A stretch of DNA of 64,000 bases from Synechococcus sp. C9. GTDB taxonomy: Bacteria; Cyanobacteriota; Cyanobacteriia; Gloeomargaritales; Gloeomargaritaceae. A program made the position numbers and the translations under genes. Positions 1-52,386 of this stretch are shown piece by piece; the first letter of the stretch is position 1, and every line of letters starts with the position of its first letter. Location: NCBI RefSeq assembly GCF_022984075.1, contig NZ_JALAAD010000001.1, positions 1,716,455 through 1,780,454 on the forward strand, given 5' to 3'. The notes under the pieces were generated by a model. It was not told where the DNA came from. It saw nothing but the letters and a program-made list of their open reading frames with translations, and did not search any database.

Positions 1-1279
1 GACCGGGATTAATTGATTGAGACCCGATTGACGTGTAACCGGGAATCTTCTATCAAAAACGTGTTTCAGTCCCGTTGACCGGGATTAATTGATTGAGACT
101 CCCCTGTTTCACCAAAATCGTTATAGGTTGGACAAGTTTCAGTCCCGTTGACCGGGATTAATTGATTGAGACTCGTTTGGATTTCCCGTTTCCAGCCGCC
201 CCGAATAAGTTTCAGTCCCGTTGACCGGGATTAATTGATTGAGACTTTGCCTACCATGTTGCCCTAATTGAGTGGTCTGGTGTTTCAGTCCCGTTGACCG
301 GGATTAATTGATTGAGACATTTGGAACCTTACAGGAGGTGGCGAGCATGAGTCCCCGTTTCAGTCCCGTTGACCGGGATTAATTGATTGAGACTCACAAA
401 ATTGCCACCCGCCATAGAGATAAGGCTCGTTTCAGTCCCGTTGACCGGGATTAATTGATTGAGACCCGTTGCGCCTCCCGCTCCCCCGCCGTCGTGTTTT
501 CGTTTCAGTCCCGTTGACCGGGATTAATTGATTGAGACACATCAGGCGTGACATCAGGCGTGACATCCGTGACAAGTTTCAGTCCCGTTGACCGGGATTA
601 ATTGATTGAGACTTTGCCTACCATGTTGCCCTAATTGAGTGGTCTGGTGTTTCAGTCCCGTTGACCGGGATTAATTGATTGAGACATCCCCGATGGCGTA
701 TTGACTGGCGGTGGGGGTGATGTTTCAGTCCCGTTGACCGGGATTAATTGATTGAGACGACGGATGCGGATAATGACCTGTTATGCGAGAGCTTTGTTTC
801 AGTCCCGTTGACCGGGATTAATTGATTGAGACCTGTAGCCCCCGCAGAATCTGCCTTAGCCCGTTCACCCGTTTCAGTCCCGTTGACCGGGATTAATTGA
901 TTGAGACCCAATAAACTTTGGACTTTGGTTAGCCCGGTAGGTGCGTTTCAGTCCCGTTGACCGGGATTAATTGATTGAGACTCCCGCAACCTACCACCTG
1001 CGCTATGGCGGGGGGTCACGTTTCAGTCCCGTTGACCGGGATTAATTGATTGAGACGCCAAAACCTTCCGCTTTGACCCTAATCGCCTCTCCAGTTTCAG
1101 TCCCGTTGACCGGGATTAATTGATTGAGACTTCCCGTGCCAGTTCGAGGTGGCTGGTCGGGCAACGGTAGGTTTCAGTCCCGTTGACCGGGATTAATTGA
1201 TTGAGACTGGATGTTGGGTCCCCCGGCGGTGGGGTCTAGGTTGTTTCAGTCCCGTTGACCGGGATTAATTGATTGAGAC
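1..1279 (-). CRISPR. Type I-D CRISPR array, 18 repeats (first one cut by the window edge)
   Basis: A 37-nt repeat recurs every 72-77 nt. It is identical in all complete copies, beginning GTTTCAGTCCCGTTGACC and ending TTGATTGAGAC as printed. Complete copies start at 63, 136, 209, 282, 357, 429, 502, 576, 649, 722, 796, 871, 945, 1020, 1094, 1171 and 1243; 1-23 is the end of another. On the minus strand the repeat ends in ACTGAAAC, the usual crRNA 5' handle, after a hairpin TCCCG/CGGGA with a 5-nt loop, the usual Cas6 substrate. Transcription is therefore leftward, and the leader lies at 1280-1485 beside cas2. Spacers are about 36-40 nt. The spacer at 246-281 is repeated exactly at 613-648. The array continues beyond the window. 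Confidence 0.98.
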
Positions 1280-1485
1280 GGCACAGGCTAGAACCCACAG
1301 CAGGAAGGCGTTCCAAGCTACATTTTGGCAGACCTCCGGCAATCGGTGAGTTTTGTTACTACTTTGTTTACCGTTTCTGGCAACAAAGTTGAAAAAGTAT
1401 TGATTTTTCCAGGTTCTGGGGCTTTTGGCAAACCTCCCAAGGATTTTGACCTTGCTTGGGTTTGCCAAAATAACATCCATTTCTA
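1280..1485 (-). promoter_or_regulatory. Probable leader of the type I-D array
   Basis: This is the non-repeat interval between the last repeat of the array and the end of cas2. Its place at the 5' side of the inferred array transcript is where the leader and array promoter are expected. It is AT-rich beside cas2. The short open frames on both strands resemble no known protein. No promoter box can be assigned with confidence. Confidence 0.6.
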
Positions 1486-1779
1486 TCATAAGATAATTGC
1501 CCCCTCTTGTCGCGGCTTTTCCGACCCGTAAGTAATAGTTCGTTTCACTGCCCCTGCATCCAAAACATAAATTCTGATTGAATCCTCGTCAGATTTAATC
1601 AATTTTTCAATTTGAGTTTGTAGTTTACTAAACTGTACAGCAGTCAAAAAGCACTCAAACACACTATACTGTGTCCATTTTCCATAACCCGATAGTAATT
1701 TATGCAAACGATTACGCCGTTTATTTGCTGGCTTACTATCCGGTAAATCATAAATAATCAAATAGAACAGTGTAGTCAC
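1486..1779 (-). CDS. cas2: CRISPR-associated endonuclease Cas2 (type I-D locus)
   Basis: A 97-aa protein of normal Cas2 length, beginning TLFYLIIYDLPDSKPANKRR. This is the first beta strand with the conserved Asp (YDLPD), followed by NKRRNRLHKLLSGYGKWTQYSVFEC, the strongly conserved RxxKLL-GYGxxxQYSVFE segment. Cas2 bridges two Cas1 dimers in the spacer-integration complex. The gene is the last of the I-D operon, directly before the leader, and starts 3 nt after the cas1 remnant. Because its cas1 and cas4 partners are broken here, this Cas2 probably has no cognate partner unless one is supplied in trans by the second cas1 at 47.2-48.1 kb, which belongs to a different repeat family. Confidence 0.93.
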   Translation of the reverse strand: MTTLFYLIIYDLPDSKPANKRRNRLHKLLSGYGKWTQYSVFECFLTAVQFSKLQTQIEKLIKSDEDSIRIYVLDAGAVKRTITYGSEKPRQEGAIIL

Positions 1780-1782
1780 ATT

Positions 1783-2076
1783 TTAACGTAAAATAAGAGG
1801 TTGATACGCAATATTTTCTTGTAAATGTCGTGCCATAAGTCTAGCTTGAAGTTCAATTGCTCGCCGATAGGTACAGCGATACTCAAATACTGGATGCTTA
1901 AATTCATCGCTCATTTTGCGTTCAAACGCTTGTAAAAAAGACTTTCGAGCATTTTCTGAAAGGCGATAAGCTCCTAAACTTTCACTAAAGTCTTGGCGTT
2001 TTATCCCTCGGTTATTGATTACTGCCAACACCAAATTATCCGCTACCAATGGGCGGAACTCCTCCATTAAATCCAA
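1783..2076 (-). pseudogene. cas1: cas1 remnant, C-terminal third only (type I-D)
   Basis: The remaining 97 aa begin LDLMEEFRPLVADNLVLAVIN, which is the conserved C-terminal Cas1 segment carrying the last metal-binding Asp (LDLMEEFRP). They continue with the helical tail FLQAFERKMSDEF. Cas1 is normally about 320-330 aa, so roughly the first 225 residues are missing, including the catalytic Glu and the His motif. The fragment starts at the base after a single CRISPR repeat (2077-2113). It lies in the same frame as the cas4 fragment upstream, with a TGA at the junction. A TTG at 2076 or the ATG three codons further could be used for translation, but a catalytically competent Cas1 cannot be made. 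Confidence 0.9.
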
Positions 2077-2113
2077 TTTTCAGTCCCGTTCACCGGGGTT
2101 GATTGATTGAGAC
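2077..2113 (-). repeat. Solitary CRISPR repeat at the cas4/cas1 deletion junction
   Basis: Thirty-seven bases match the repeat of the array at 1-1279 at 33 positions. By my alignment the mismatches are repeat positions 1, 15, 22 and 25. It has the same orientation as the array and keeps the CCCG/CGGG hairpin and the ACTGAAA end. There is no second copy nearby, so it is not a short array. It is flanked without any extra bases by cas4 coding sequence on one side (2114 onward) and cas1 coding sequence on the other (2076 downward). Confidence 0.93.
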
Positions 2114-2343
2114 TCAATGATGCCAGAAATGAGGAGGCGGTCACTCCAGACCCACTGTTGTTTATGAATAAGCGTATCTCCTTCTTGAACGGTTTCTGAC
2201 TCGTTTATATGCCGATGTAGATGACGACCAAGAATAAGATGTTCATTATCCGCCATTTCACCTAACACATATTCAAAGTAAAAACGCCTGGGACAATATT
2301 CCCAAGCATTGAGATAAGCTAAAGGTAAATAATCCTCAGACAT
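2080..2343 (-). pseudogene. cas4: cas4 remnant, N-terminal part (type I-D)
   Basis: The start ATG at 2343 lies 4 nt after the cas6 stop. The protein begins MSEDYLPLAYLNAWEYCPRR, the Cas4 N-terminus with its first Fe-S cysteine (EYCPRRFYFEY), then GRHLHRHI with the RecB-type His. It runs to RLLISGIIE, where the active-site Asp of the GIID motif is expected. At that codon the sequence enters the solitary CRISPR repeat and ends in TGA. About 87 aa remain of the usual 190-200. The D, ExK and three C-terminal cysteines are lost, so the exonuclease that trims prespacers cannot be active. Confidence 0.88.
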
Positions 2344-2347
2344 GACC

Positions 2348-3211
2348 TTACACTTCATGTTGTTGTAAAAGTACTTGACCCATGCCCATTGCCGTTTTAC
2401 GTCCAACTCCCGCAAAAAACGCAAAGTGAGCCAAAATGGTTGCAATTCTTGCCTGTTCTGGGTCAGGGAACCGATAGCGTACCCAGCCGACTGCACCGAT
2501 TTCAACTGAATTTTCCATTTTTATTTTCTGGGTTTTGAGGTCATAATCTGAAACCAGTCCACTCCATTGAATTTTGGGAAAACGCCATTCGTCAGGGGCA
2601 AAAATATTCCAGCGGCGATGCAAACTCCCAAATACGGATTCCGGTAGGGGAAACGGTTGAATTCCTTGCCCGGAGTTGAGCTTAAAACTGGTTGGGGAGA
2701 GCAGTTTGAGCGTGAGGTCATCGGATGCCACCGGGATTTTGGCAAGTAAGGCATAGTCCGAAGAACCTACCCAGGGGTCGGTGCCAGGTAGCATATTGAT
2801 ACTGCGGAAAATAAAGGGACATTTTGCGAGGGAAAAAGCTTTATCGCCCCACTTTTCCAAACCACTCAGTAACGGTTCAATCAGGCTTCCATCCAGCAAT
2901 CCAATCCGAAAGTAAAATTCATCCCCAGCCCGCACCTCTGCTTTCCGGCGTTTTCCCATTAGCCCAGAGAGGCTCAGCGGTGATTCCTGGCTTTGGTGAA
3001 TGGCTTCAGAAATAGCCGGGTCTGCCAAACGAAACCAATCAAGGACTTGAGCATGAATGGCTCGACCACAAGCTCCGGGTAAAGCTCCGTCGTCGGCAAC
3101 GCCTAAATGAATCACCAGCGTATGCAGAGCAGTGGATTTAAGTCGGGGTAACGGCAATGTTGGCTCCATAGCTAACTCCACTTGGTAAACAAACCTCATG
3201 GGACAGGTCAT
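2348..3211 (-). CDS. cas6: CRISPR repeat-processing endoribonuclease Cas6 (type I-D)
   Basis: A protein of about 270-287 aa, the size of type I-D Cas6. It has two ferredoxin-like halves: the N-terminal part has LHTLVIHLGVADDGALPG, and the C-terminal part has the glycine-rich loop FFAGVGRKTAMGMGQVLL that binds the repeat RNA. It cuts the precursor transcript 8 nt before the spacer. The hairpin and ACTGAAAC tail of the adjacent array fit this. The first possible start overlaps csc1 by 74 nt. Starts at 3199 and 3169 are alternatives, and I cannot decide between them. The order csc2-csc1-cas6-cas4 is the normal I-D order. Confidence 0.9.
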   Translation of the reverse strand: MTCPMRFVYQVELAMEPTLPLPRLKSTALHTLVIHLGVADDGALPGACGRAIHAQVLDWFRLADPAISEAIHQSQESPLSLSGLMGKRRKAEVRAGDEFYFRIGLLDGSLIEPLLSGLEKWGDKAFSLAKCPFIFRSINMLPGTDPWVGSSDYALLAKIPVASDDLTLKLLSPTSFKLNSGQGIQPFPLPESVFGSLHRRWNIFAPDEWRFPKIQWSGLVSDYDLKTQKIKMENSVEIGAVGWVRYRFPDPEQARIATILAHFAFFAGVGRKTAMGMGQVLLQQHEV

Positions 3212-3905
3212 GAGAATTAGACCAATGATCGGGTTTAGAAATTTGCCAGTAATTCCCGACGAGCCGTGACTGACTGACCAGACTGACCGGTGGCATCACA
3301 ATCCGGTTATAGAGCAACAAACGGGTAGAACCAGGCAAATCAATGGGATTCAAGGGATGGGTACAGGAATACTCACCTGACTTTTGCTGAATGGCATTTG
3401 CAGGCAATCGTTGTGCATCCACTTGAATTTTGGACGCCCATTTACCCAAGCGTATCCAGCGGGGAATTGAGATAGGTTCACGAGCAATAATGTAAGTTTG
3501 GTAGAGACTGCCAACCGCCAATTCCTTAGCCCGTCCATAGTTTATCGGGTAGTTGCGATTTGCCCCTCTCTCTCCAAACTGTTTGGATTGACCGTAGTAG
3601 GGCACTTGAGCCGCTTTGAAGGTATTAACCTGGTAAGACCACTTCAGCGGTAGGGCTGGAAAAACATAGATACCATGCTCATTGAGTACCAACAAATTTT
3701 GCTCATTGGCGGTTTCTAAATAACCAGGACGTTGAGCGACTGCTCCCTGCAAACGGTAAGGTTTAGGAATGAAGGTGGCTTCAAACAAAGCAAAACTGAG
3801 TGCCCAATTATGCAGGTACTTCTCTGTTTCATAGAGGATTCCCATCTCACGGGTGGCAAAAAAAATGTTGTCATGGAGGGTCAAAGTACACTGATAAAAC
3901 AGCAT
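3138..3905 (-). CDS. csc1: Type I-D Cascade subunit Csc1 (Cas5 family)
   Basis: A 255-aa protein beginning MLFYQCTLTLHDNIFFATRE and continuing MGILYETEKYLHNWALSFAL. This is the Csc1 signature, with a first beta strand and a Tyr/His-rich helix. Csc1 plays the Cas5 role: it caps the 5' handle of the crRNA in the type I-D surveillance complex with Csc2, Cas10d and Cas6. It lies downstream of csc2 with a 54-nt gap and overlaps cas6. The length is normal and no frameshift is seen. Confidence 0.88.
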   Translation of the reverse strand: MLFYQCTLTLHDNIFFATREMGILYETEKYLHNWALSFALFEATFIPKPYRLQGAVAQRPGYLETANEQNLLVLNEHGIYVFPALPLKWSYQVNTFKAAQVPYYGQSKQFGERGANRNYPINYGRAKELAVGSLYQTYIIAREPISIPRWIRLGKWASKIQVDAQRLPANAIQQKSGEYSCTHPLNPIDLPGSTRLLLYNRIVMPPVSLVSQSRLVGNYWQISKPDHWSNSHDLSHEVCLPSGVSYGANIAVTPT

Positions 3906-3959
3906 GGGAATACCTCTGGTTAGGGGTTTAGCAATTCAAAAATGGGGTAGGATAGCGTT

Positions 3960-4982
3960 TTATTCTTCCCTTCGGCTTGTTTTTCTCCTTGTTTCTTGTT
4001 TAGCTGTTGCTCCATACGTTTCTGAATAGGTTTTGGTTTGCTCGTACAGAGTGGTCAATGTATGACGCAAACGCTCTTCATCCTGATAAAGACTGTTTAC
4101 TTCCGCCAACAATTCATCCAACTGTTGACCGAAAATAACTTGGCGTTTCCGCACTGGTTCTTGATTCAACAATTTTTCTGCTACCATAGTCGCCTCCGCT
4201 GATAAGTTACTGATTGGTCGAGCTGTATCCCCATCTAAAGAATCGTAGAGTGCTTGAGTAAAGTGCAAATTACTAAAGATTTCGCCATCACAGAGGGCAA
4301 TCCCCACAATATGATTGGTCATGGTGCCAGTACGAGATTCTTGGGCACCATAGCGACGAGTCCGAAGCAAATTACCCAGAATATAGATAAAGCCTTCCCA
4401 AGTAGAATCTCGCAAGGTTTCCACAGTAGGAAATGATACTTCTGGCAAGATGTGATCCTGTTCATTAATAGAAGATCGCATTTCCCCCTTTTCACTCATC
4501 GTGCCGCCTTCAAAAGGAGCATTGAAGGTAAAACTACGATGGGAAAGTTCGTAAGGACTGAGAGAAAATGCTGAATCAGAATAGACTTTGGAACGTTCAG
4601 AGCCACTGTCCCCAATGGCAAAACCATAGAGGATACAATCGGGGCACTTTTTACAGGAGTTTTCACCGTTATATTCACAGAAATTATCCATTCCTGCCGT
4701 TGCACTGGTGAGATTAAGCGAGCGCAATAGTTCCCGCCCAGTTAATCGCTCTGGGGTGACCTGTTTGCGTTTGAACATGACCAGACGGCTAATAGATTGC
4801 TTAGACTTTTCATTGCTGGCATCTAAACCTGCCTGAGTGCGGGCAGTGTTGAGAACTCCATCAGTCTGAAAGATGGGAAATGATTGGCTGTGGCGCACCA
4901 CCAAAAAGTGTACATAGTTCCCAGAAGCCAGCCGGGGAAAAGCAATTTGAAAGTTCGGCTTTAAGGATGTAAGGATGCTCAT
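3960..4982 (-). CDS. csc2: Type I-D Cascade backbone subunit Csc2 (Cas7 family)
   Basis: A 340-aa protein beginning MSILTSLKPNFQIAFPRLAS. Residues near 40-55 (TDGVLNTARTQAG) are the conserved Csc2 N-terminal motif. At 102-116 there is a four-cysteine zinc site (C102, C110, C113, C116) as in Csc2. Later come a Gly-rich AFEGGT stretch and the RRYGAQESRTGTM segment. Csc2 forms the helical filament along the crRNA spacer. The C-terminus is basic and low in complexity (KQETRRKTSRREE). The gene sits 21 nt downstream of cas10d. Confidence 0.92.
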   Translation of the reverse strand: MSILTSLKPNFQIAFPRLASGNYVHFLVVRHSQSFPIFQTDGVLNTARTQAGLDASNEKSKQSISRLVMFKRKQVTPERLTGRELLRSLNLTSATAGMDNFCEYNGENSCKKCPDCILYGFAIGDSGSERSKVYSDSAFSLSPYELSHRSFTFNAPFEGGTMSEKGEMRSSINEQDHILPEVSFPTVETLRDSTWEGFIYILGNLLRTRRYGAQESRTGTMTNHIVGIALCDGEIFSNLHFTQALYDSLDGDTARPISNLSAEATMVAEKLLNQEPVRKRQVIFGQQLDELLAEVNSLYQDEERLRHTLTTLYEQTKTYSETYGATAKQETRRKTSRREE

Positions 4983-5003
4983 GATTGCTCTCCAGATGGT
5001 GGT

Positions 5004-8000
5004 TTACGATGTGGCTTGTTGGTCTTGTAGGGCTAATTGAAGGTAGGCAAATTCGACTCCCGATTTCAGGCGGTTGCGATGTTCCTGAAGCAGGGCACGG
5101 TCTCCTTTACACATCCTTCCAAATACGTCAATCACGCAGGTGGTCATAAAAGTTTGAATCGCTTCAAACTCTTGGATGCGACGTTGCTCAAAAGGAATCT
5201 CTTTGTTCTGTATAATGGGGCGTTTATAGACTTCTTGCCGCTCTAAGGCGGCTCTTAACTGCCCCGCTCCTTGCACGATAAGTTCCTCATCATCCCAATC
5301 ATTCGGTACAGAGAGAATGTGTTCTAGTGCCTTGGAAAAGGGAAGTAAAATTGCATAACTCGACTTGTCTATTCCAACTCGATAGAATTGGCGGTATTCA
5401 TTAGCTAAGCGTTTTGTAATTTTCAACTTGGTTTCCATCTCCGTATCTCCTTCAGCCCAGATGTGTGCATAACTCCAATAACGGTTGATTTCGTTTTTAG
5501 TTGGTTTTCTCTTGTCTTTAGAGCTACTACGGCGTAACCCCTCCTTTGCTAGTGAAAAAACATTTAAGACACTGGCTACTATCTGCTGAATAGTGTCATT
5601 CAATTTCCTCCAGCGTTCATCTGGCGGATTTGTACCTCCTAGCCCGCTGTGTTTATTTGCAAAATCTGTGTCATTCAATTTCCTCCAGCATGCATCTGGC
5701 GGATTACTGCGACTATCCAAATGTAAACAATAGGCAACCATCAAACGATTCAAGTTATCTGCTAGATTTTGAACACGCCCCCCAATCCAATCCTGAAGAT
5801 GCAAGGAAGTGGGAAAGCCCAATGCGTACCAAAAATTTGCCGGGCCGTCAATTTTGACAGATTCTTTGAAGTCTTTATCACTATCATAAAGCGGAATCTG
5901 GCTACTTGTGGCAACCACTTTCACCCCCAATAACAAGGGTAATGCTAGAGCTAAAAAAGCCGGTTCAATCCAAGCTTCAGTTACAGTTTTACCTCTAGTT
6001 GTGGTGTAGTGCATTGCCATAAAAGGCAAGTCTTCACGGGAGTATTTGGATGGAGCAGAGTTACCCGCATCGCCGTCATCATTAGTTAACCAGGAGAACG
6101 AGCGCAATGCTTGGGCATCCATGCCATGTTCCAGCCAGTATTTGCGGACATCCCAAAAATTGATACGTTTGAGTTCATTCATCATTAATCTGATAGCGGC
6201 GGCAACCTGCGGCGAGTAAACGTATGCTGGAAAGATGTAAAGAAAAACGGGCTGTTGATCCTCTAATTTACCTGCGGGTACAGACCAAAATATCTGTCTA
6301 AGCAACATTTCCAGTGCCCATATTTTGGAAATTCCTCGTTTGATCTGCGTTCCACCAAGGGGATTTTTATTACTATATTGTTGAGGCTTAAATAGGACAA
6401 CTGAATCCATCTGATCTTCCGAAGCAAATTCACCTGAACTAAGCGAACAAATAGGGTGTTTAGCTTTGCTAGTCTTTGCGGAAATATAGCCTACCAGTTC
6501 ACGTTGAAAAGATGATTCCGGTTGCTCCCACCCCTGCACTTCCAGGTATTGCGTCAGATAATCATAAAAAACTTCCCGGGTTGGGCTGTAATGTTCTGGT
6601 AACAATTTATTTTCTTCTGCCCAGGTAGCTAGTTGCTCGGCAATTTCTTGTAGTTTTTTATCAAGTTGCTCTAAATCAAGCGTGCTGTGACGAGCAATAT
6701 AATAAGCGGCTACATAATACCAACCATAGTTCACCCCACCGGATTGAAACTGTGTTTGTTCAGGGGTGATTGCGTCTTGAACGCCGAGTTTTTCCAGCAT
6801 CCAAGCAATAAATTCAGGTCTATCTGCAAAAAATTCTTTTTGCGCTAAAATAATAAACTCTGCAGTGCGATCCGCTCTTAAGTCTGCACTACTAGACAAA
6901 AATTCCCGCTCTATTTCGCTAGGTTCTAACCTTTCCAACCGCTTGGGAGTTGCCGGTGATTTGGCATTGGCAACATAGGATTTAACTACGCTAGGTAAAT
7001 TCCGAATCAATTGAGCAGGTGAAAAGAGTTCCAGGGTTTGGGGAGCCACCTTCAGTCCCTTGCCATCCCGTTTGAAGCCTACTTGTCCATTCTCCATATT
7101 TGAGGCTAATAGCTTGCTAACCTGCTCCCAGAGGAATTCTTGAAGTTCTGAGCGATCAGGTACGCCAGTATCCTGGGGAGCAAGATAAACCACCCCCTGA
7201 GCAAAGAAAAGGAGGGGTTGCCAATCCAGTTCTCTGGCAAAGTGCATGACGGCATTATGAATCCCGCTGGTCAAAATACCTGTACAGTCGCGCAAACGGT
7301 GATAGGTCAACTTGCGGTGGATGCCCAGATGACGCAGATGATCACGCAGACGATTGCCCGCCGTTTTCGTCTCAATGTCTGATGGGTCACTGAGATGGAC
7401 CGCAACATCGCCAAAAGCAAGGAGCCAGCGTAGCGGTGAGTCTAGGCGACGAGTATCTGGAATTTTGAAAGTGCCCCAATTCGCTTTGAACGGATTGATT
7501 CCCACTTTTCCCTGGGTGTTTTGAGCGAGGTAGCCAATCTCTGTCAAATACTCCCGCCACTCTGCCCAAAATGCGTCAAAATTCAGTCGTTCTCCTAAGG
7601 TTTGGCACAATTCTAAAATTTTAGGAATTTCAGAAGCATCAGGTACTTGTTGCTGTTCTCCATTGCACCACTTGTTGTAGTCATGTAGGGTTAATCCTAA
7701 ACAAAGCAAACGTTTTTCTGCATCAGTGAGGATCAATTCAGGACTTAAAAATGGCAACAAGTTCCAAGCGGTTAATAAGGCATTGAGAACATGAACCAGC
7801 AGACTTTGGTCAGAGTATTCTGCATAGCGTTTCGCTTTTTCCATTGCAAATTCACTACCTCGCTGTAGGAGCAGATGGTACTGAGCCTCTTCGGAACCGC
7901 CAAGGGCTGGAATTAAGCCAAATTCCTGTTCCATTGCAGGTAAAACTGTTGCAAGATAAGCCCGCAGGATCGGATCGGTTTCCTCTGAGAGCGTCCGTAA

Positions 8001-8024
8001 TAGCAGGGTTTGTAGTAAAGTCAT
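5004..8024 (-). CDS. cas10d: Type I-D large subunit Cas10d (Csc3) with HD nuclease domain
   Basis: From the ATG at 8024 (a TTG two codons earlier is possible) the protein has 1006 aa, as usual for Cas10d. An N-terminal HD nuclease domain is visible: H78 in LLVHVLNALL and the HD pair at 114-115 in LGLTLHDYNKWC. This is the Cas3'' nuclease that in type I-D is fused to the large subunit rather than to Cas3. The rest is Cas10-like without a GGDD cyclase motif, so no cyclic oligoadenylate synthesis is expected. Near residues 770-815 a segment NPPDxxWRKLNDT occurs twice, 25 residues apart; at DNA level the 38-nt copies are at 5593-5630 and 5668-5705. The gene is 12 nt downstream of cas3. Confidence 0.93.
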   Translation of the reverse strand: MTLLQTLLLRTLSEETDPILRAYLATVLPAMEQEFGLIPALGGSEEAQYHLLLQRGSEFAMEKAKRYAEYSDQSLLVHVLNALLTAWNLLPFLSPELILTDAEKRLLCLGLTLHDYNKWCNGEQQQVPDASEIPKILELCQTLGERLNFDAFWAEWREYLTEIGYLAQNTQGKVGINPFKANWGTFKIPDTRRLDSPLRWLLAFGDVAVHLSDPSDIETKTAGNRLRDHLRHLGIHRKLTYHRLRDCTGILTSGIHNAVMHFARELDWQPLLFFAQGVVYLAPQDTGVPDRSELQEFLWEQVSKLLASNMENGQVGFKRDGKGLKVAPQTLELFSPAQLIRNLPSVVKSYVANAKSPATPKRLERLEPSEIEREFLSSSADLRADRTAEFIILAQKEFFADRPEFIAWMLEKLGVQDAITPEQTQFQSGGVNYGWYYVAAYYIARHSTLDLEQLDKKLQEIAEQLATWAEENKLLPEHYSPTREVFYDYLTQYLEVQGWEQPESSFQRELVGYISAKTSKAKHPICSLSSGEFASEDQMDSVVLFKPQQYSNKNPLGGTQIKRGISKIWALEMLLRQIFWSVPAGKLEDQQPVFLYIFPAYVYSPQVAAAIRLMMNELKRINFWDVRKYWLEHGMDAQALRSFSWLTNDDGDAGNSAPSKYSREDLPFMAMHYTTTRGKTVTEAWIEPAFLALALPLLLGVKVVATSSQIPLYDSDKDFKESVKIDGPANFWYALGFPTSLHLQDWIGGRVQNLADNLNRLMVAYCLHLDSRSNPPDACWRKLNDTDFANKHSGLGGTNPPDERWRKLNDTIQQIVASVLNVFSLAKEGLRRSSSKDKRKPTKNEINRYWSYAHIWAEGDTEMETKLKITKRLANEYRQFYRVGIDKSSYAILLPFSKALEHILSVPNDWDDEELIVQGAGQLRAALERQEVYKRPIIQNKEIPFEQRRIQEFEAIQTFMTTCVIDVFGRMCKGDRALLQEHRNRLKSGVEFAYLQLALQDQQATS

Positions 8025-8036
8025 GATCAAAACCTC

Positions 8037-10160
8037 CTAAAAGATCAATGATTGTGGTTGTAAACGGCAGAATTGAGCTAATCGCCCTTTCAAAGCTTCA
8101 AGCAGTAAAGCATCTTGATTAAACGCAACGGCATAGCTCTGTTTATTGGAAGCATCGGTAAGATAATACAGACCAAAAACGGGACTGAGTTTGAGAGTGT
8201 TCCTTACTTCCCAATGCGACTGGCGTATGCTCAATGGAACCAGAAATGCCAGGTGTTTGTGTTTAGAGAGGCACTTGCCCACCTCCGGCTGGGGATGACC
8301 GACCAGGCTTAAACGGCTCAGTAAAGTCAATTCACAACACTTCAAATCATTCGTATTCCAATTACAGTGCAAACGAACATCAAAGCGATCCTCCACCCAC
8401 TTCTGTATGCGTAAATAAACCTGAATATAGTTTTCAGGGAAGGCTTCTTCTCCCAGTCCCGCATTGGTTACAGCCTCCAAAAAATCCTGCCTCGTTGTGA
8501 TTTCAACTTGAGCGTAGGGTAATAATCTGAGCAGGTCATAGGTATAAAAACGATTCCCATCCCATACCGCCGCTTGTAAGGTTGAACCCCCCCGAAATCG
8601 GAGTAATTCTTTTTGTACCTCTTTGCCAATATCACTATTGCCTAATTCCCGCCAATTTCCCAACCAGAGTTTCAGTTTAGAACCATAAACCTGTTGCAGA
8701 TCGGTGACCATACGTTCACGAATCGGTTGCATCACTTTTTGATTACCTTCACCCATTTTCCAAAGCATTCCCTGTGCCTGGATTGCCCCCCAACGGCTAC
8801 GGTATTCCTGAAACTCCTGTGGGGCATCAAATGCGTTTGTAATCGCTTCCTGCAATTGACTGCGTTCAATCTCTTGGTCTGGTTCTAGGTATTCCTTCAA
8901 CCGTGCCATGAACCAAGGAGTGCGTCCCGAAATTAAGATGAAAGCATAATAGATTGAGAAGCCTGGATGTCGTCCTAGCCTACCTAACCGTTGAATAATA
9001 GTTGCCGCATCACTACTTTCAAAGATCAGCAAATTAATTTTGAAATCAACGCCAACATCTACTGCTGAAGTACCAATAACCAGAACCGGTTGATGGGCAT
9101 TTTGCAACTCTGAGTGAGTCTGCTCTCGCTCCCGTCGGTCAATTCGTCCGCTGATTTCTCGCACAAGAATATCTGGCAACAATTTAGCCAGTAATTGAGT
9201 TGCCCGTCCCGCTTGCGCCACTGAGTTTAGAATCACCAGCCCTCTACCCTGTTTTTCTGCCTCTAATATGGCTCGGATAGTGCTGGCTTTATTCTCCAAC
9301 CACGTCAACGTATCCGCATCTTTCAAATCAACAAATTCCAGTTGAATAGGCTGTAAAACTTGACGATAGCCGGGTGTAGGTTCACTGGTGTAGCTACCAG
9401 CAATTTCGACAGTTCGCAACCCCGACTGCTTGAGTAATTGGATAAAGTCTGGTTTGGGAGTGGCTGAAGTAAACAGGAATCGTCTAGGACGCTGATCCGA
9501 GTGAACACGCCGAATCAAGGTCATACTGTTTAGTACGGCGGCTTCCTGATGGGGACCAAAAATATGAAACTCATCGAATACCCAGAGATCGGGAAACTCC
9601 GCCAGAACTAGTGGCAAAAGATCATTACTATAGGCTGGGTCACGGTACTGGAAGTGGGTAATTAAATGAAAAATATCAGGGTTAGTTAATATGATTTTCT
9701 TGTGCTCGATAGCTAGTAATAACTCTTGAAATTTATTACTTTTTTCTGCTTCTTGAATACGCCGGTCTAATTCCGCACCAAACAAGCAATCAATACGCTC
9801 ATCCGCATTCAGCCCAAACATCAAGTGCCAACCCCGCTGGCTACGGCTCTGGTCTTCCACCAGTTCGATTGTTGGGTACAGCCCCATGATTCTGAAAACA
9901 ACATCCAACAAACTAGCAATAAAAGCCGCTAGTGACTTACCATCACCTGTGGCAGCGGTATTGAAAATGACATCAGTATTTCCTCTAACCACCTCGGCCC
10001 AAGTCTTAGCCTGGTGGACAGAAAGAGGACAGGTGTACCCTGAAGGAGTCTGGAGACTGGGAGCCTTCTGCCGAACCTGACAAACATTCTGACACCCCAA
10101 CGGACATTGACCTACCCCTGGGTTAAGCTCGGAATACAAAGGCTTTACAGAGATTTTCAT
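8037..10160 (-). CDS. cas3: Cas3' helicase of type I-D (no HD domain)
   Basis: A 707-aa superfamily 2 helicase. It shows a Q-motif region, Walker A ATGDGKS at residues 70-76, the DEFH box at 196-199, SAT at about 231, and the C-terminal motifs VGVDFKINLLIFES and QRLGRLGRH. It unwinds target DNA for cleavage by the HD domain, which here is in Cas10d. Its own HD domain is absent, as is characteristic of type I-D. The N-terminus has four cysteines (C19, C23, C27, C44) that may bind a metal. First gene of the cas operon, with its ATG at 10160 facing the WYL gene. Confidence 0.92.
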   Translation of the reverse strand: MKISVKPLYSELNPGVGQCPLGCQNVCQVRQKAPSLQTPSGYTCPLSVHQAKTWAEVVRGNTDVIFNTAATGDGKSLAAFIASLLDVVFRIMGLYPTIELVEDQSRSQRGWHLMFGLNADERIDCLFGAELDRRIQEAEKSNKFQELLLAIEHKKIILTNPDIFHLITHFQYRDPAYSNDLLPLVLAEFPDLWVFDEFHIFGPHQEAAVLNSMTLIRRVHSDQRPRRFLFTSATPKPDFIQLLKQSGLRTVEIAGSYTSEPTPGYRQVLQPIQLEFVDLKDADTLTWLENKASTIRAILEAEKQGRGLVILNSVAQAGRATQLLAKLLPDILVREISGRIDRREREQTHSELQNAHQPVLVIGTSAVDVGVDFKINLLIFESSDAATIIQRLGRLGRHPGFSIYYAFILISGRTPWFMARLKEYLEPDQEIERSQLQEAITNAFDAPQEFQEYRSRWGAIQAQGMLWKMGEGNQKVMQPIRERMVTDLQQVYGSKLKLWLGNWRELGNSDIGKEVQKELLRFRGGSTLQAAVWDGNRFYTYDLLRLLPYAQVEITTRQDFLEAVTNAGLGEEAFPENYIQVYLRIQKWVEDRFDVRLHCNWNTNDLKCCELTLLSRLSLVGHPQPEVGKCLSKHKHLAFLVPLSIRQSHWEVRNTLKLSPVFGLYYLTDASNKQSYAVAFNQDALLLEALKGRLAQFCRLQPQSLIF

Positions 10161-10211
10161 GTTGTCCCTGCCAAGTTAGACAATGATATATTAGACCACC
10201 AGAGAAAATAT
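10161..10211. promoter_or_regulatory. Divergent promoter interval, cas3 / WYL regulator
   Basis: Only 51 bp separate the cas3 start (minus) from the chosen WYL regulator start (plus). The interval contains the AT-rich ATGATATATTAGAC. Both promoters and any WYL operator must lie here or overlap the coding starts. I see no clear palindrome. Confidence 0.5.
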
Positions 10212-11186
10212 ATGTCATCAAAAAATGATAACAACTATAATCAAGTCGGTTTTGCACTAGAAATCCTGAGGTTGCTGGCCGAGAAGCCGCACAGCCGGGA
10301 TGAGCTGGGTAGGCAACTTACGGAGTTCCTTGCCAAACACGGGAAACCCGTAGGGGATATTGACCAAAAAATCGTGCGTACCATTAAAAAACTCAGGGAA
10401 TGTGGCTTTGAAATTGATAGTGCTCCCAATCGTCCTTATAAGCTGTCGTCCTCCTCATTTCCGGTCATTCTTTCAGCGGAACAAAGGCAGTCCCTTGCCT
10501 TAGCAGCCTATTTGCTATCAGAAATTGGGTTTTCTACCCAGGCAAGCCACGTACTAAAAATTGGCAAGTTAACAGATCAGGATTGGCCGCAGTACATACA
10601 GACTAGATTTAGTCCCCCAGCGGACTACAGTGCAGAGAGTATTCAGAAGGTCATCTCTGCATTAGAGGAACGTTTTCGTCAGAAACGGCGATATACCATT
10701 CGCTATCGTAATACTAAGGGAGATGAACAAATTTTTGACTGCGACTGCTCGGAATTACGGTTACATGATGGCGTGTTATACCTATTTGCTTGGGTTCCAG
10801 ATAGCCCATTCAAAATCTTCCCAAAATCCCCGAATGTAGAGCAAAACTATACCTTTCGTGTTGACCGCATCATATCGGTAGGAGCACCATCTTTGACCCC
10901 CTGGAAAGAGAAAAACTTGCCAACGTTTGAAGTACGCTATCGGATGATTAAACAATTGAGCGATTACCAGCCACGCAGGTCTAACGAAAGGGTGCTACAG
11001 CGCGATCCTGATGGCAGATTTGTGGAGATTGTGGCGACCGAGGATAGTATTTTCTGGTGCCGTCAACGCTTTTTGCAATATGGTGCCAATGTTCTCCTAT
11101 TAGAACCTAACTGGCTAGTTGACCAAATAATAGCAGAACTCCTCGATGCTACTAGAGAATATCACTTAGGACGCTTTTCGCCCTAA
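10212..11186 (+). CDS. WYL-domain transcriptional regulator of the I-D locus
   Basis: I prefer the ATG at 10212 (324 aa) over the frame's first codon at 10107, because the earlier start would lie inside cas3. The N-terminal 80 residues form a winged helix (LEILRLLAEKPHSRDELGRQ, then DQKIVRTIKKLRECGFEI). The middle holds the WYL ligand-binding domain (RYTIRYRNTKGDEQIFDCD, LYLFAWVPDS), and a C-terminal WCX-like part follows. WYL proteins commonly stand divergent to cyanobacterial type I-D operons and control them. Here the single 51-bp intergenic region makes regulation of cas3 and self-control likely. The ligand is unknown. Confidence 0.85.
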   Translation: MSSKNDNNYNQVGFALEILRLLAEKPHSRDELGRQLTEFLAKHGKPVGDIDQKIVRTIKKLRECGFEIDSAPNRPYKLSSSSFPVILSAEQRQSLALAAYLLSEIGFSTQASHVLKIGKLTDQDWPQYIQTRFSPPADYSAESIQKVISALEERFRQKRRYTIRYRNTKGDEQIFDCDCSELRLHDGVLYLFAWVPDSPFKIFPKSPNVEQNYTFRVDRIISVGAPSLTPWKEKNLPTFEVRYRMIKQLSDYQPRRSNERVLQRDPDGRFVEIVATEDSIFWCRQRFLQYGANVLLLEPNWLVDQIIAELLDATREYHLGRFSP

Positions 11187-11248
11187 AGTAAAGGCATAAA
11201 ACCATGTACCTTAGGACGAAAACCTTGTTAACCTAACCCCTGGTAACT

Positions 11249-12045
11249 TTAGAAATCGGCTTCACCGCTAGGTATCTTAAATGCCGCTGGACACATTAAT
11301 CTAATCCTACAAAAAGCACACTCCTTGGCACTAGGTTTAGGTTCTGGGGGGGAAGTGGTAGTTGCAATTTTCGTGATATTTGTTACTGCCTCCCTCCAGG
11401 ATTGATGATTAACTTGATCCGGCGGAATTGAAATGCGCTGAATTTCTGTATCCCCATTAAAATAAATCAGTTCACCCTGTGGTATCGACTTAATTTCATG
11501 CAAACCCACCTTCGGTGCACAGGACATGTATAGTCATTTCACAAGAAAGTGCAACACTTTTTAGGTATTTGCAATTGCTCTATCCCCTTCTAAGACAGGG
11601 TTTGTAGGTAAAGGCGAATGTTGCAAACTTATTTGAAATTACTATATATCTCTAATTGGGCTTGATCCTTAAGTTGGCTTTCCTCCGAAAGTTGCCCCGT
11701 TTTGACCTCTATAATTTTTGATTCTTGGCTGGAAAGCGCAACTAAATCGGGGGTTCCAGAGAGACTTGCCCCAATGGTGGTATTGATCCAAAACTGATTC
11801 GCATCTTCCACAAAAACCTCATATCCCTTGGATCGATATTCCTGTTCAACCTTAGCAACCGCTTTCCTATGAATTACATTGTACTGAAGTAATTCAGGGG
11901 AGCTTTCGCTAGGAACCTTAAAGTTCGCAAGGGTATATAGTGCCAGCCCACAAGTACTATTTCCAGAAAGGTACTTTGCCAGCCAACTCGTGTGAAAGAA
12001 GGGTTTATTGCGCTTCGGTAAATCAAAACAAAAAAGCGTGTTCAT
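11249..12045 (-). pseudogene. PD-(D/E)XK superfamily nuclease gene interrupted by a MITE
   Basis: The 5' part starts at ATG 12045 after a TGGAG ribosome site and reads MNTLFCFDLPKRNKPFFHTS. It carries the nuclease core GTPDLVALSS...IIEVKTGQ (D and ExK) and reaches DQAQLEIY before entering a 114-bp insertion at 11644. The 3' part (11249-11527) ends with KECAFCRIRLMCPAAF, a Cas4-like cysteine cluster. Together they make a Cas4/RecB-like (PDDEXK_1) protein of about 230 aa. Precise removal of the insertion leaving one TA does not join the two frames by my reading, so another small indel is likely. Its place beside the I-D locus suggests a defence role, but this is inference. Confidence 0.75.
11531..11644. 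mobile_element. 114-bp MITE of IS630 type inside the nuclease gene
   Basis: Imperfect 26-bp terminal inverted repeats match at 19 positions. The left one begins TAGTCATTTCACAAG and the right one, read inward, begins TAGTAATTTCAAATA; both end in TGCAACA. TA dinucleotides flank it, as IS630/Tc1 elements leave. The same outer ends (TAGTCRTTTC... TGCAACA) bound the IS630-family element at 33883-34839, whose transposase could mobilise it. It has no coding capacity. Confidence 0.8.
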
Positions 12046-12159
12046 ATTTATCTCCAAAAAGCTATGCTCTGATTGTAGCATATGTATATTACTCCTAGAT
12101 TTTAGAATGTAGTCAATTTTTGATTATAATTTGGTTTTAGACTAGACCAACAGTCATGA

Positions 12160-12655: not shown

Positions 12656-12716
12656 CTACAAGAATGGGCAACAGTCTTCATCAATGCTATAGTTGTTAAA
12701 AAATTTGTATCCCCCC

Positions 12717-14924
12717 ATGGCTCCCTTGGAAAACCTTCAGCAAACTTCAGTGGTACTTAATCGCTACCTAGTAAGACCTCTAGAGGAAAAAGATTTAACA
12801 ATTCATGAGTATCAATGTCATTTCGCTCAACTCCCGCAACAAGGCGATGAACAAAGAGCAGTTTCCAGTATTTGTTACAAGCTAGGAGTCACTGCTGTTA
12901 GATTAGGCAGTCGAATCATCACTAGAGAAGAAGTCAGTCCCGCAAAAATGAGAAGTGATGATTGGGAGTTATTTAAGACAGCTACTAGAAAACTAGATTG
13001 TAGTAATACCTGCGAAAGAAAAGCCCTAGAAACCTTTGAGCGTAGAGTTTTAGAGCAAGGACTAAAAAAGTACTTTAACAAAACTGAGATTGAAAGAGCC
13101 TTGGAAGGTGGACTGATTTGGTGGATAACAGGTCATGAGGGGGCGGAGAAATGTGGAGATGCTTGGGAAGTACACAGAGGGAGAAGAATAGATGTCGTTA
13201 TCGATTCAGATGGCAACCTCTACCTAGAAATCGATATACATCATCGCTTCTATACACCTTGGACACTGCATCAATGGCTAGAAGAGTATCCCGATGTACC
13301 TATCAGTTATGTTAGGAACACATATAAAGATAAAAACAATAATTACATTAGTTGGCAGTACGAAGGAATCTCTGACCAATTACCACAAAAAGTCGTGTTA
13401 GAAGGATTGGGTATTAGTCTAGCGGATTACCATCGTCAAAATGGGGCTACTAATGCAGAAATCAATAATTCTCTTGTTGTGCTTGTTAAAAGAGCTAATG
13501 ACTGGAAAGCAAAGCCTGTAGCGCATTTGTCTCAAAGGCTATCACCAAGCTTAACAATGGAGATGCTGGCAAACATTGCTGATGCTGAAAGCGGAGAAGA
13601 AAGTCAACAAATCAAAGAAGTTTTTGAGTTCATCAGAAAAAGTTTAGATGTTCGCATAAAGAACTCCACAAAGACAGCACATACAATCCTTGAGAAGATT
13701 TATAGAATTTCTGGCGAAGCTGAAGCTATAAGGGTAGATGGATATATTTTGCCAACAGCTAAATTACTGGCATCTAATGATCAGCAAGTAGATAAGGTTG
13801 CTAAAGTCCGATATAAGGGATGTGCCAGAGTAGGTGAAACAAAGTTTGGCTGTCTTAATCTTTACAATGAAAAGCACCAATATCCTGAAGAAGTGCGTAA
13901 ATGTTTGTTGGAAATCGCAAACAATAGCAACACGACGATAGAAATAGACTCCTATCGTACACAACAAGATATTCCTGAGAGTGAACTAGACCAACAAATG
14001 TTCTGGCAAAACTGGTCTGATGAAGACATTAAAACAGTTTTAGTGGTAATGCCATGGTCACCCAATGAGCGCAAACAAAAAATTCGGGTGCAAGCACTTC
14101 AAGCAGGAATAGCTACTCAGTTTATTGTGCCAATGCCAAAGGCAGACTCTTATAAAGCTCTGAATGTTGTTTTAGGAATTTTGTGTAAAGCTGGTTGGCA
14201 ACCCATACGCCTAGAGCCTTTGGATCATCCTGAATGTGCTGATCTAATTATTGGTTTTGATACAGGAACCAATCGAGAGCTTTACTATGGCACTTCTGCA
14301 TTTGCGGTTCTTGCGGACGGGCAAAGCTTAGGATGGGAGTTGCCTGATGTTCAACGAGGAGAAACCTTTTCTGGAAAAGCGATTTGGCAAACGGTATCAA
14401 AGTTAGTTCTTAAATTTCATCACAGTTGCAAGCGTTACCCCAAAAAACTACTTTTGATGAGAGATGGATTAGTTCAGGAAGGAGAATTTCAGCAAACGAT
14501 AGAAGAGCTTGCAAAGAAAAATATAGCTGTTGATGTTGTTGGAGTACGCAAAAGCGGTGCTGGAAGAATGGGAAAAGAGGATATTCATGCAAATGGGGAA
14601 GTGGTATACCGTGATGCCAAAATTGGTACTGTCATTTTTACTCCAAAAGAAAAGTCATTCACTTTAGTAACGAGTCAACCAATCAACCAGAATATTGGCA
14701 GTGTAAGACCCCTTCGGGTAGTTCATGAGTACGGCAATACATCTCTGGAAATGATTGCTTTGCAAACTTATCATCTATCTCAGTTGCACCCTGCTAGCGG
14801 GTTTCGCTCTTGTCGATTACCTTGGGTATTGCATCTTGCAGACAGAAGTAGTAAAGAGTTTCAACGCATAGGGCAAATTAGTATTTTGCAAAATATCAGT
14901 CGTGAAAAATTGATTGCTGTCTGA
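12717..14924 (+). CDS. Long prokaryotic Argonaute (pAgo) with a catalytic PIWI domain
   Basis: From the ATG at 12717 the protein has 735 aa, the size of long pAgos (a TTG at 12693 is an alternative). The C-terminal PIWI domain has D515 in LIIGFDTG, E549 in VQRGETF and D583 in LLLMRDG. Their spacing of 34 and 34 residues equals that of the D-E-D residues of Thermus Ago. A fourth residue is probably D709 of LHLAD, after the conserved HPASGFRSCRLPW. The N, PAZ and MID regions precede it. Such proteins use short nucleic-acid guides to cut invading DNA in the cytoplasm. The gene has no partner in an operon and sits between two attC-like sites with only a short leader. Base composition is AT-rich compared with the core genes. 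Confidence 0.9.
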   Translation: MAPLENLQQTSVVLNRYLVRPLEEKDLTIHEYQCHFAQLPQQGDEQRAVSSICYKLGVTAVRLGSRIITREEVSPAKMRSDDWELFKTATRKLDCSNTCERKALETFERRVLEQGLKKYFNKTEIERALEGGLIWWITGHEGAEKCGDAWEVHRGRRIDVVIDSDGNLYLEIDIHHRFYTPWTLHQWLEEYPDVPISYVRNTYKDKNNNYISWQYEGISDQLPQKVVLEGLGISLADYHRQNGATNAEINNSLVVLVKRANDWKAKPVAHLSQRLSPSLTMEMLANIADAESGEESQQIKEVFEFIRKSLDVRIKNSTKTAHTILEKIYRISGEAEAIRVDGYILPTAKLLASNDQQVDKVAKVRYKGCARVGETKFGCLNLYNEKHQYPEEVRKCLLEIANNSNTTIEIDSYRTQQDIPESELDQQMFWQNWSDEDIKTVLVVMPWSPNERKQKIRVQALQAGIATQFIVPMPKADSYKALNVVLGILCKAGWQPIRLEPLDHPECADLIIGFDTGTNRELYYGTSAFAVLADGQSLGWELPDVQRGETFSGKAIWQTVSKLVLKFHHSCKRYPKKLLLMRDGLVQEGEFQQTIEELAKKNIAVDVVGVRKSGAGRMGKEDIHANGEVVYRDAKIGTVIFTPKEKSFTLVTSQPINQNIGSVRPLRVVHEYGNTSLEMIALQTYHLSQLHPASGFRSCRLPWVLHLADRSSKEFQRIGQISILQNISREKLIAV

Positions 14925-15069: not shown

Positions 15070-16734
15070 ATGGCTATGACTAATTACACTGACTGGAATA
15101 CAGCGATTGCCCACTACTTCACCCAAAATGTACCCAAAGGCACAAAAATCTACTTGAGTTTAGATGATGACACTTTGGTGAAAATCGGCAGTAACTTTGC
15201 AGAAGAATGCACAGCCAGCTCGTGGGTCGAGAATTTTTGCAGTGTTGTTAGGCGAAAGGTAGTCCAAGATAAAAGAGTAGAACTGGGTGCTATCTCGGGG
15301 TTCGATAGCTCAGGTTATCCACGAGGAGTGGCATTTTTAGGGATTATGGTCTTGGCGGCGAACCGAATGGAAGAAGATGAAGAAGTGAGCCAAACAAATT
15401 ATTTCACAAGGTTACGCCAGATACTAGATTTACCCGAAGATGGACAATCCAGACCACGCGGATTGAGAACAGTTGATGGAAGCGCTCCAGAAGTTGAATT
15501 ATGGACAACATGGAATCGCTGGCTAATTAAACAAGGCTACATCCCAACCGCCCAAGAAGGCGCTAGCGCACCAACAAAATATACCAAATATTCAATATCA
15601 CAGTCTTTACTTCGTAATGCAGATAAAGATCGACTTAGAAAAGTCTTCTCTGAAAATCAATGGCAAACAAGATGGGATGAGCAGACATTATTTACCAAAG
15701 TGGCTAATGAATACTCAAGGTTTCCGCAACATCTTAGAAATTTGATAGACGATCGCTCACGCTATGAACCACTTGCTCAGGCAATCCATGAAACCTATGA
15801 AGAATGGTTAGAAGAGGGATCATCAATCTCCTTATCTGGTCAATCAAGACATAGGGAGTGGAGCCGCCAACTTTACGCAGGAATATACCGCACAGAGGAT
15901 TTTCTGGGAAACATTGAATATTACCTATATCCAAAACAACAAAGAGGGCGATCGCTAAGCTCGTTAGCAGTTCAGTGCAAGGGCAACTCATACCCTTTAC
16001 GAGAAGACAGAGCAGGATGGTATCTGCCAGTTGGAGAATCATTGTCTGCACAAGAAATATCCGAAGGTGGAATATACCAGATAAATCCCAGTACTCAAAT
16101 CGAGAAACTTATTTTACCTAAGCGAGACTTTTGGATATTAGTACCCGATCCAGACAAACCAGAATCAAGTGTATATGCCAGCTGGAGCAGTCCCAAACTT
16201 GGGGAGCAATTCATTATCCTTTTTAGAGAATCTTTATTCACGGATTTACAGAGATTGAGAGATGAGAATTTAATTGAGTGGGAGGGCAATCGTGAGAATA
16301 AGTGCCAAGTTTTTGGTGATAAATCCAGCTGGTACGAGATATATCAGTGTCAAGTATTATCGCAGGCATGGGATGGAGTATTTTTGCAATCTCAAGAGTT
16401 AAAAGATGCTCTGCAACCGACCACAAAATTATCAATTAGCCTGTCAGGAGGTCTTAGAGTACCAAGTAGTAATGCTTGGATATTTGATCACCCACCTCAA
16501 GTAACAGCTTTTGCCTTTCATCCTTCAGTTCAGATAGAAGTTAGCGATATTCATGGTAAGTCTATTATTTATCAAGATTCCTGTTCTAGTAACACTCCAA
16601 TGAGTTTCAAGTTTCCTTCGGTAGGGGAATTTATGATTAGGACTAATTGTCTGGGAGAAACCAGCCAAAGGCTAATTAAGCTGATTAACTGGGATGATGT
16701 CGATATAACTTTACAAAATCAATTGGAGGCATAA
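15070..16734 (+). CDS. Unrecognised 554-aa protein, first gene of a helicase-linked operon
   Basis: I do not recognise this family. The ATG at 15070 (or the one two codons later) starts a soluble protein without signal peptide or membrane segment. The N-terminal 190 residues are mostly helical (NYTDWNTAIAHYFTQNVPKG). The C-terminal half looks beta-rich (KLSISLSGGLRVPSSNAWIF, then VQIEVSDIHGKSIIYQDS), perhaps an adaptor or immunoglobulin-like fold. No nuclease, methylase or ATP-binding motif was found. It is followed after 1 nt by a winged-helix-like protein and then a DUF1998 helicase. The three therefore probably act together, by position as a defence system in which this protein could be a sensor or scaffold. 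Confidence 0.7.
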   Translation: MAMTNYTDWNTAIAHYFTQNVPKGTKIYLSLDDDTLVKIGSNFAEECTASSWVENFCSVVRRKVVQDKRVELGAISGFDSSGYPRGVAFLGIMVLAANRMEEDEEVSQTNYFTRLRQILDLPEDGQSRPRGLRTVDGSAPEVELWTTWNRWLIKQGYIPTAQEGASAPTKYTKYSISQSLLRNADKDRLRKVFSENQWQTRWDEQTLFTKVANEYSRFPQHLRNLIDDRSRYEPLAQAIHETYEEWLEEGSSISLSGQSRHREWSRQLYAGIYRTEDFLGNIEYYLYPKQQRGRSLSSLAVQCKGNSYPLREDRAGWYLPVGESLSAQEISEGGIYQINPSTQIEKLILPKRDFWILVPDPDKPESSVYASWSSPKLGEQFIILFRESLFTDLQRLRDENLIEWEGNRENKCQVFGDKSSWYEIYQCQVLSQAWDGVFLQSQELKDALQPTTKLSISLSGGLRVPSSNAWIFDHPPQVTAFAFHPSVQIEVSDIHGKSIIYQDSCSSNTPMSFKFPSVGEFMIRTNCLGETSQRLIKLINWDDVDITLQNQLEA

Positions 16735-16735
16735 A

Positions 16736-42585: not shown

Positions 42586-42672
42586 AACTCTCTTACTTTC
42601 TAGCAAAACGGATACTGTAGGAAACAACAAAAACCAAGAGCAAAGGGGACTTGTTAGTTGAGTTAGTACAGT

Positions 42673-45423: not shown

Positions 45424-45624
45424 TGCCTTATCTGGAACTGGCTTCTAACTTACCATTCCGGGTGCGTTTCCGCCAACCCTCCACAGGCGTTAGTACATTT
45501 CGTCTAAAATCGCCCATGCAAAACCTGCAAATCTCGTCTGGGAGCCATTCCGCCGACCTCCACGATAGAATCGGCTTTTCCCGGTTTGGCTGACCCTGGC
45601 GGTAGCCGCTGTGAACCATTTTTC
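45424..45624 (-). promoter_or_regulatory. Probable leader of array 2
   Basis: This is the 201-bp interval between the last repeat and the DnaJ-protein gene, at the 5' side of the inferred transcript. It carries no recognisable protein. Several GC-rich short inverted stretches are present, but I cannot assign promoter boxes. Confidence 0.55.
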
Positions 45625-46749: not shown

Positions 46750-46883
46750 TACCTACACCCCCGCATTACGCCCTCATCCGTACCTCCATCCTATATCCTT
46801 AGTAGAAGGGTTCACTTCTAAAACGGTAACATATCTCACCTTTTCAACAAAATTTTAGGTAGATTCAGCAAACTCTCAAAATT

Positions 46884-47171
46884 TCAAATCACTGTTGAAC
46901 CTTGTGGTTCTGATAAGGGTCTGCCACCCCAAACGATAATTTGCTCCAGCGCATAGGTGGGAATGGGATAAAATCGTACACTATCTTCTTCAATTTTTAT
47001 GCGTCTTTTTAATCTTTTTTGCAATTCGGTTAATTTTTCTGCTGATAACCAGCATTCAAAGACACTATATTGCACCCTTTGACCATATCCTTCTAATAGC
47101 TCAGCCACCTTACGCCGCCGCCGATTGGAAGGAATATCATAGCTCACAACCATCAGCCGTTCCATGATCAA
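46884..47171 (-). CDS. cas2: CRISPR-associated endonuclease Cas2 (type III-B locus)
   Basis: A 95-aa protein. MERLMVVSYDIPSNRRRRKV gives the first strand with the conserved Asp. AELLEGYGQRVQYSVFECWL is the signature segment. Length normal. The first codons overlap the cas1 stop by 4 nt (a start at 47165 would remove the overlap). With Cas1 it forms the integration complex for array 2, whose leader lies beyond the J-domain gene. It differs clearly from the I-D Cas2 at 1486-1779. Confidence 0.94.
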   Translation of the reverse strand: MIMERLMVVSYDIPSNRRRRKVAELLEGYGQRVQYSVFECWLSAEKLTELQKRLKRRIKIEEDSVRFYPIPTYALEQIIVWGGRPLSEPQGSTVI

Positions 47172-48145: not shown

Positions 48146-48469
48146 CTACAACCAGGGATCACGCTGGCGCAGGGATTCCGAAACCCGCTCGATGTCGGAG
48201 CTAACGGGTTGCTGTTGTCCTGACGGTATAGCAGAAGAACGTGGCATCAACCAAAAACACACCCCGTCCATCACCGTTGCCGTCAGCCACGTTGCCCCCG
48301 TGACCAGCAATGTATTGGTCAGCACCGCCGCCAACCCCAACGGGGCAATCAGCAAAACAATCAGGGTAATGGTGCCATTGACCACCGCCAATACCAAATT
48401 TCGCACCTGCAACTGCCGGATATGCAAAATCAACCAAGTCCCCTTGCGAGCCATAGCCGTCCATCTCAA
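48146..48469 (-). CDS. csx18: Small two-span membrane protein, Csx18-like
   Basis: A 107-aa protein (M at 48469 or 48454). Two hydrophobic segments can be read: LVLAVVNGTITLIVLLIAPL and LAAVLTNTLLVTGATWLTAT. A polar tail ends RQRDPWL. Its size, topology and place directly upstream of cas1 in a type III-B locus match the Csx18 group that is almost confined to cyanobacteria; its function is not known. It could be a membrane partner of the III-B response. The assignment rests on pattern and context and needs a profile search. Confidence 0.55.
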   Translation of the reverse strand: MRWTAMARKGTWLILHIRQLQVRNLVLAVVNGTITLIVLLIAPLGLAAVLTNTLLVTGATWLTATVMDGVCFWLMPRSSAIPSGQQQPVSSDIERVSESLRQRDPWL

Positions 48470-51115: not shown

Positions 51116-51133
51116 CTTGAATTAGGAGGATGT

Positions 51134-52350: not shown

Positions 52351-52386
52351 TTAACGCTTTATTTACCCTTAACTTTGGAGCCAATC

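Follow-up and report, generated by a model that had tools for sequence, protein, structure and literature searches.

The DNA analyzed here, referred to as the window, is a 64,000-nucleotide stretch from Synechococcus sp. C9 that opens within a type I-D CRISPR-Cas locus encoded on the minus strand. In minus-strand order, the locus comprises cas3', csc3, csc2, csc1, cas6, a cas4 stump, a solitary repeat, a cas1 stump, cas2, and the array. The genes for the I-D cas3' helicase (positions 8037 to 10160; TIGR03158), csc3/cas10d (5004 to 8030; TIGR03174), csc2/cas7d (3960 to 4982; TIGR03157), csc1/cas5d (3138 to 3905; TIGR03159), and cas6 (2348 to 3211; TIGR01877) stand in one operon, which identifies the locus as type I-D, a subtype assignment that does not require adaptation genes. 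All five products are long and match their families, in accord with the preliminary description of this DNA, in which the interference genes were regarded as intact. An intact cas2 (1486 to 1779) is followed by a leader region (1280 to 1485), assigned from its position and orientation, and by the array (1 to 1279), which extends below the window to C1:1715921. Among the 25 repeats of the array, 24 are identical and one has a single change, and the spacers are 35 to 42 nt long. A complete cas4-cas1-cas2 adaptation module was not present, as cas4 and cas1 are truncated and have no second I-D copy.

A defense island adjoins the I-D locus, with a long prokaryotic Argonaute gene (12693 to 14924) and Druantia-like DruF/DruL/DruE genes (15070 to 23841). 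The Argonaute gene neighbors a gene for a Cas4-like PD-(D/E)XK nuclease (11249 to 12081, minus strand), apparently broken in two pieces. Farther along the window (42668 to 54033) is a second locus, in which a large array is accompanied by csx18, an intact cas1, and the genes of a type III-B (Cmr) set. Besides, the far-end repeats of the I-D array (C1 about 1715790 to 1715883, L006) and of a third array (L008:4834-4886) are both truncated and adjoin a similar GGGCACC/GGTGCCC element end, apparently belonging to a small mobile element inserted twice in CRISPR repeats.

The solitary repeat (2113 to 2077, minus strand; 37 nt) has the sequence GTCTCAATCAATCAACCCCGGTGAACGGGACTGAAAA, and the repeat of the adjacent array, which served as the reference, is GTCTCAATCAATTAATCCCGGTCAACGGGACTGAAAC. 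The two agree at 33 of 37 positions, as the preliminary description had stated for a single repeat between the cas4 and cas1 stumps, and differ by T13C, T16C, C23G, and C37A. The solitary repeat is complete at both ends, as a piece of an array should be, has the orientation of the array, and retains the CCCG/CGGG hairpin. By our own arithmetic, the chance of a 37-mer with four mismatches in 3 Mb is about 1e-9, and such a match is not expected. A scan of the window allowing up to 12 mismatches gave repeat matches only in the array and at this position. An Rfam scan of positions 1 to 12000 returned no matches, and no promoter-like site was found adjoining the solitary repeat.

The cas4 stump (2114 to 2343, minus strand) retains 76 residues plus the GA of an Asp codon (TIGR00372, 3 to 70 of 180), and the cas1 C-terminal stump (1783 to 2076, minus strand) retains 97 codons (TIGR04093, 237 to 334 of 334). 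The repeat links codon 77 of cas4, a conserved Asp codon interrupted after its GA, with a Cas1 Leu that is residue 229 in relatives; the Asp motif, GIID in relatives, reads GIIE in the window via the first G of the repeat. The cas4 frame terminates at a TGA within the repeat, and the cas1 stump lies in the same frame. On the cas1 side, Blast homology of relatives starts at query base 1136, which is window position 2076 and the first base past the repeat. In intact Myxacorys Cas1, the Leu of LDLMEEF is residue 229 of 325, and the 228 residues N-terminal to it are absent here. Compared with relatives, an interval of about 1 kb is missing from this genome: the distance from the Asp-codon GA to the Leu codon is 1030 to 1062 bp in 12 of the 15 relatives measured (full range, 1030 to 1283 bp). 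The preliminary description had given the same picture, with cas4 cut at the Asp codon, seamless flanks, a shared frame closed by a TGA, about 225 Cas1 residues missing, and about 1 kb lost.

Searched with the Pfam Cas1 family, the whole genome yielded the stump and two complete Cas1 genes of other loci; searched for Cas4, it gave no match at E ≤ 0.001, and the I-D Cas1 N terminus was not found elsewhere in it. Since the genome holds no further copy of the lost parts, the lost kilobase is gone and was not moved. Both stump reading frames are open. The stumps agree with relatives in each of the 59 columns where these do not vary (no change in 33 columns of cas1 or in 26 of cas4); judged from this sequence conservation, the loss of the interval is recent and the stumps are fresh. 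Another, independent loss of the N terminus was seen in a truncated I-D cas1 at L033:5616-6317 (G058:C43), which retains residues 92 to 325 and is fused in frame to a sequence resembling, by eye, a conjugation-type ATPase.

The state of the stumps also bears on the four mismatches of the repeat. Neutral decay was rejected as their origin: a rate of 10.8% per site, corresponding to the four differences, predicts about 14 changes in invariant columns of the stumps, and no single rate fits both the repeat and the undecayed stumps. With neutral decay excluded, either the repeat was already a variant on arrival, so that the donor repeat is one no longer seen in the array, or it changed under selection.

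We further examined the two junctions as possible spacer edges. The PAM of type I-D systems is 5'-GTN before the protospacer, and the commonest I-D spacer length is 35 nt (PMC10212523). This PAM was taken from other I-D systems and assumed for the present one, and the prediction was set down before the relatives were checked, yet after the sequence had been read. At the left edge, a GTC (2149 to 2151, minus strand), which is the conserved Val codon of WVW, stands exactly 35 nt ahead of the repeat. The intervening 35 nt (2114 to 2148, minus strand; TGGAGTGACCGCCTCCTCATTTCTGGCATCATTGA), which touch the 5' end of the repeat, would be a former protospacer in cas4 (S1). At the right edge, a putative former protospacer in cas1 (S2) would start at the junction (2041 to 2076, minus strand; 36 nt shown) and begins TTGGATTTAATGGAGGAG. 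Every one of 25 intact cas1 genes of cyanobacterial I-D loci, drawn from the genome collections, has a GTN (Val codon) just before this junction position; Synechocystis pSYSA, which does not belong to this set, has ATA instead. At random positions of the relatives' cas4-cas1, GT was found at -3/-2 in 5.7% and some GTN 34 to 40 nt upstream in 35%; the right-edge test is the stronger, and the left-edge test is weak. Both junctions coincide with PAM-defined spacer edges, as would be expected of spacer-target recombination, and the joint probability at random junctions is 0.057 × 0.35 = 0.02, a value from two sites only and with the PAM of other I-D systems.

We infer that a CRISPR array and the cas4-cas1 locus underwent homologous recombination and that the solitary repeat is the resulting scar, and we place the probability of this reading at roughly 0.4, because it concerns a single genome known from its assembly only, assumes the PAM, and leaves the repeat variant unexplained. 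The donor would be an I-D array, whether an earlier form of the resident array or another, variant one, carrying the neighboring self-spacers S1 and S2 around one repeat, with S1 derived from cas4 and S2 from cas1 of this very locus. S1 would pair with cas4 and S2 with cas1, giving about 35 bp of homology per arm, and the S1-repeat-S2 segment would be copied into the chromosome, turning the approximately 1 kb between the protospacers into one repeat. As a likely trigger, the intact I-D interference complex would have cleaved the cell's own DNA, providing both the break and the selection, and the gap would then have been repaired on the array. The product would also be without the S2 PAM, and the system would be left seemingly interference-competent but without its own Cas4 and Cas1. 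S1 would have been lost from the array afterwards; as the S1 target and its PAM still stand in the cas4 stump, absence of the self-spacers from the array would be required for survival. Such an S1-repeat-S2 recombination is the simplest event giving a complete repeat, spacer edges on both sides, and a seamless merge. Against it, newly captured self-spacers should sit close to the leader, next to repeats of the consensus type, yet the scar repeat is a variant.

The spacers of the present array match neither the cas4-cas1 locus nor any other part of the genome, and searches of the own genome, a few relatives, and phages yielded no convincing targets and no protospacers. Furthermore, none of 2721 spacers, taken from the retrieved loci and from stretches of this genome, convincingly matches the accompanying cas genes. 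The earlier statement that the I-D adaptation module destroyed itself was not borne out, as it needs self-spacers and the present array has none.

A search of the genome for further isolated repeats yielded two more, both with another anatomy. The first, an I-D-like repeat (C1:1250440-1250476; L029:4441-4477, minus strand), precedes a Uma2-like gene by about 50 nt. It has the C23G change in common with the solitary repeat, a hint that an I-D array with a GTGAA loop existed earlier or as a second one. The scar and this repeat also agree in the last base, which may here, however, be flanking DNA: on the 3' side the repeat gives way to flanking DNA some 7 nt before its end, and these approximately 7 nucleotides are common to C2:45108 and G002. 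Taken as an independent test of the recombination model, this repeat gave no support, since it ends early on the 3' side and has no GTN 33 to 43 nt before it. A possible degenerate second repeat lies 35 nt upstream, perhaps making up a decayed mini-array. The second (C1:482575-482610; L150:3576-3611, plus strand) matches the repeat unit of the third array (C1:1822858-1825824) at 29 of 36 positions and stands alone, with the start of a small predicted protein following about 15 nt downstream. It may thus be a recurring feature of this genome that genes are preceded by solitary repeats.

Second in probability, and clearly behind recombination with an array, comes a deletion in two steps, in which a small array or repeat element entered cas4-cas1 and collapsed between its repeats, with the kilobase lost then or earlier and the PAMs present by chance. 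Repeat-repeat recombination collapses arrays (PMC6990116), the two other isolated repeats indicate that repeats do disperse in this genome, and a variant repeat is compatible with this course. On the other hand, it requires a prior insertion by an unknown mechanism, with exact repeat ends against coding sequence on both sides, and the joint chance of 0.02 for the PAM pattern speaks against it. This is one of the two mechanisms of the preliminary description, a deletion between repeats that a misplaced integration had left, and it would leave the PAM edges unexplained. Its intermediate was found in no relative: we found none with a repeat at the cas4-cas1 position, and a repeat within an otherwise complete cas4-cas1 region of relatives, the finding that would have contradicted the preliminary description, was sought without success. 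Nor were isolated repeats seen in other I-D cas operons among the cyanobacterial loci examined.

It is improbable that a double-strand break between cas4 and cas1 was resected and joined with a filler, either a short repeat-containing DNA or a repeat processed by Cas1. Self-targeting is known to be followed by deletion-forming end joining (PMC6990116), and the insert has the size of one repeat, near that of one spacer, but a filler is not expected to end at both repeat boundaries or at PAM-defined positions.

Similarly doubtful is a foreign donor, with a solitary repeat unit (RNA anti-CRISPR) or an anti-cas mini-array of a phage or plasmid having undergone the same recombination as proposed for the resident array. 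Solitary repeats are found in viruses (PMC10651486), as are arrays whose spacers target host genes (PMC8616872), and such a donor would account for the variant repeat. However, the site holds no element sequence, the repeat pattern, S1, and S2 were not found in IMG/VR, and the repeat pattern was not found in 389 other Cyanobacteriia genomes. In a Binatia genome, an isolated degenerate repeat (L126:3765-3801) with 10 mismatches lies upstream of cas1 with its handle and hairpin kept; it could be a creA-like guide.

The other mechanism of the preliminary description, an off-target Cas1-Cas2 insertion, is disfavored: by its known chemistry, Cas1-Cas2 integration inserts a spacer, duplicates the target, and carries no repeat, whereas the insert here is the repeat itself, with cas4 and cas1 as flanks and no target duplication around it. 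That the assembly falsely joins cas4 to cas1 through the repeat while the genes are really intact is very improbable, for although repeats are classic misassembly points and the junction is known from the assembly alone, the stray repeat is a single-copy variant that an assembler could not borrow from the array, the missing kilobase is on no contig, and an assembly of 4 contigs, the main one of 2.84 Mb, with 99.98% completeness makes such an error unlikely.

Recombination between phages and CRISPR loci through spacers and their targets has been documented (Varble et al. 2019, as cited in PMC8616872). As in that case, spacer-target homology would here move array sequence to a new site; unlike the phage case as cited there, the partner would be the own cas4-cas1, and the replacement would be two-sided, leaving one repeat. 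Loss of cas genes is also a documented escape from self-targeting (reviewed in PMC6990116), and cas genes were likewise lost here, possibly following self-cleavage. The deletions described in that review have IS elements, gene duplicates, or microhomologies at their two ends; the present loss concerns adaptation genes and has a CRISPR repeat at its junction. The scar further resembles solitary repeat units, or RNA anti-CRISPRs (Racrs), in being an isolated repeat with few differences and a kept hairpin, but those units are intergenic, on mobile elements, and often behind a promoter of their own (PMC10651486), whereas this repeat lies between cas stumps, within coding remnants of a host cas operon. 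Like creA-type degenerate mini-CRISPRs, it is a repeat-like unit outside the main type I array. In creA, a pair of degenerate repeats goes with a toxin gene (PMC8501985), whereas this site has one nearly complete repeat; no toxin gene was seen beside it, and the scan with up to 12 mismatches gave no degenerate partner at a distance of one spacer. Among the open-licence papers searched, we found no single-repeat replacement of adaptation genes, and none of the other I-D loci retrieved contains one.

Tentatively, then, a cell's own array may serve as a two-armed repair template, deleting the adaptation module between edges fixed precisely by PAMs and leaving a searchable single-repeat scar. If this is true, solitary repeats with PAM-preceded, spacer-sized flanks would mark past autoimmunity and array-chromosome recombination, any genome collection could be screened for this signature, and the event would explain how some systems keep interference and lose adaptation.
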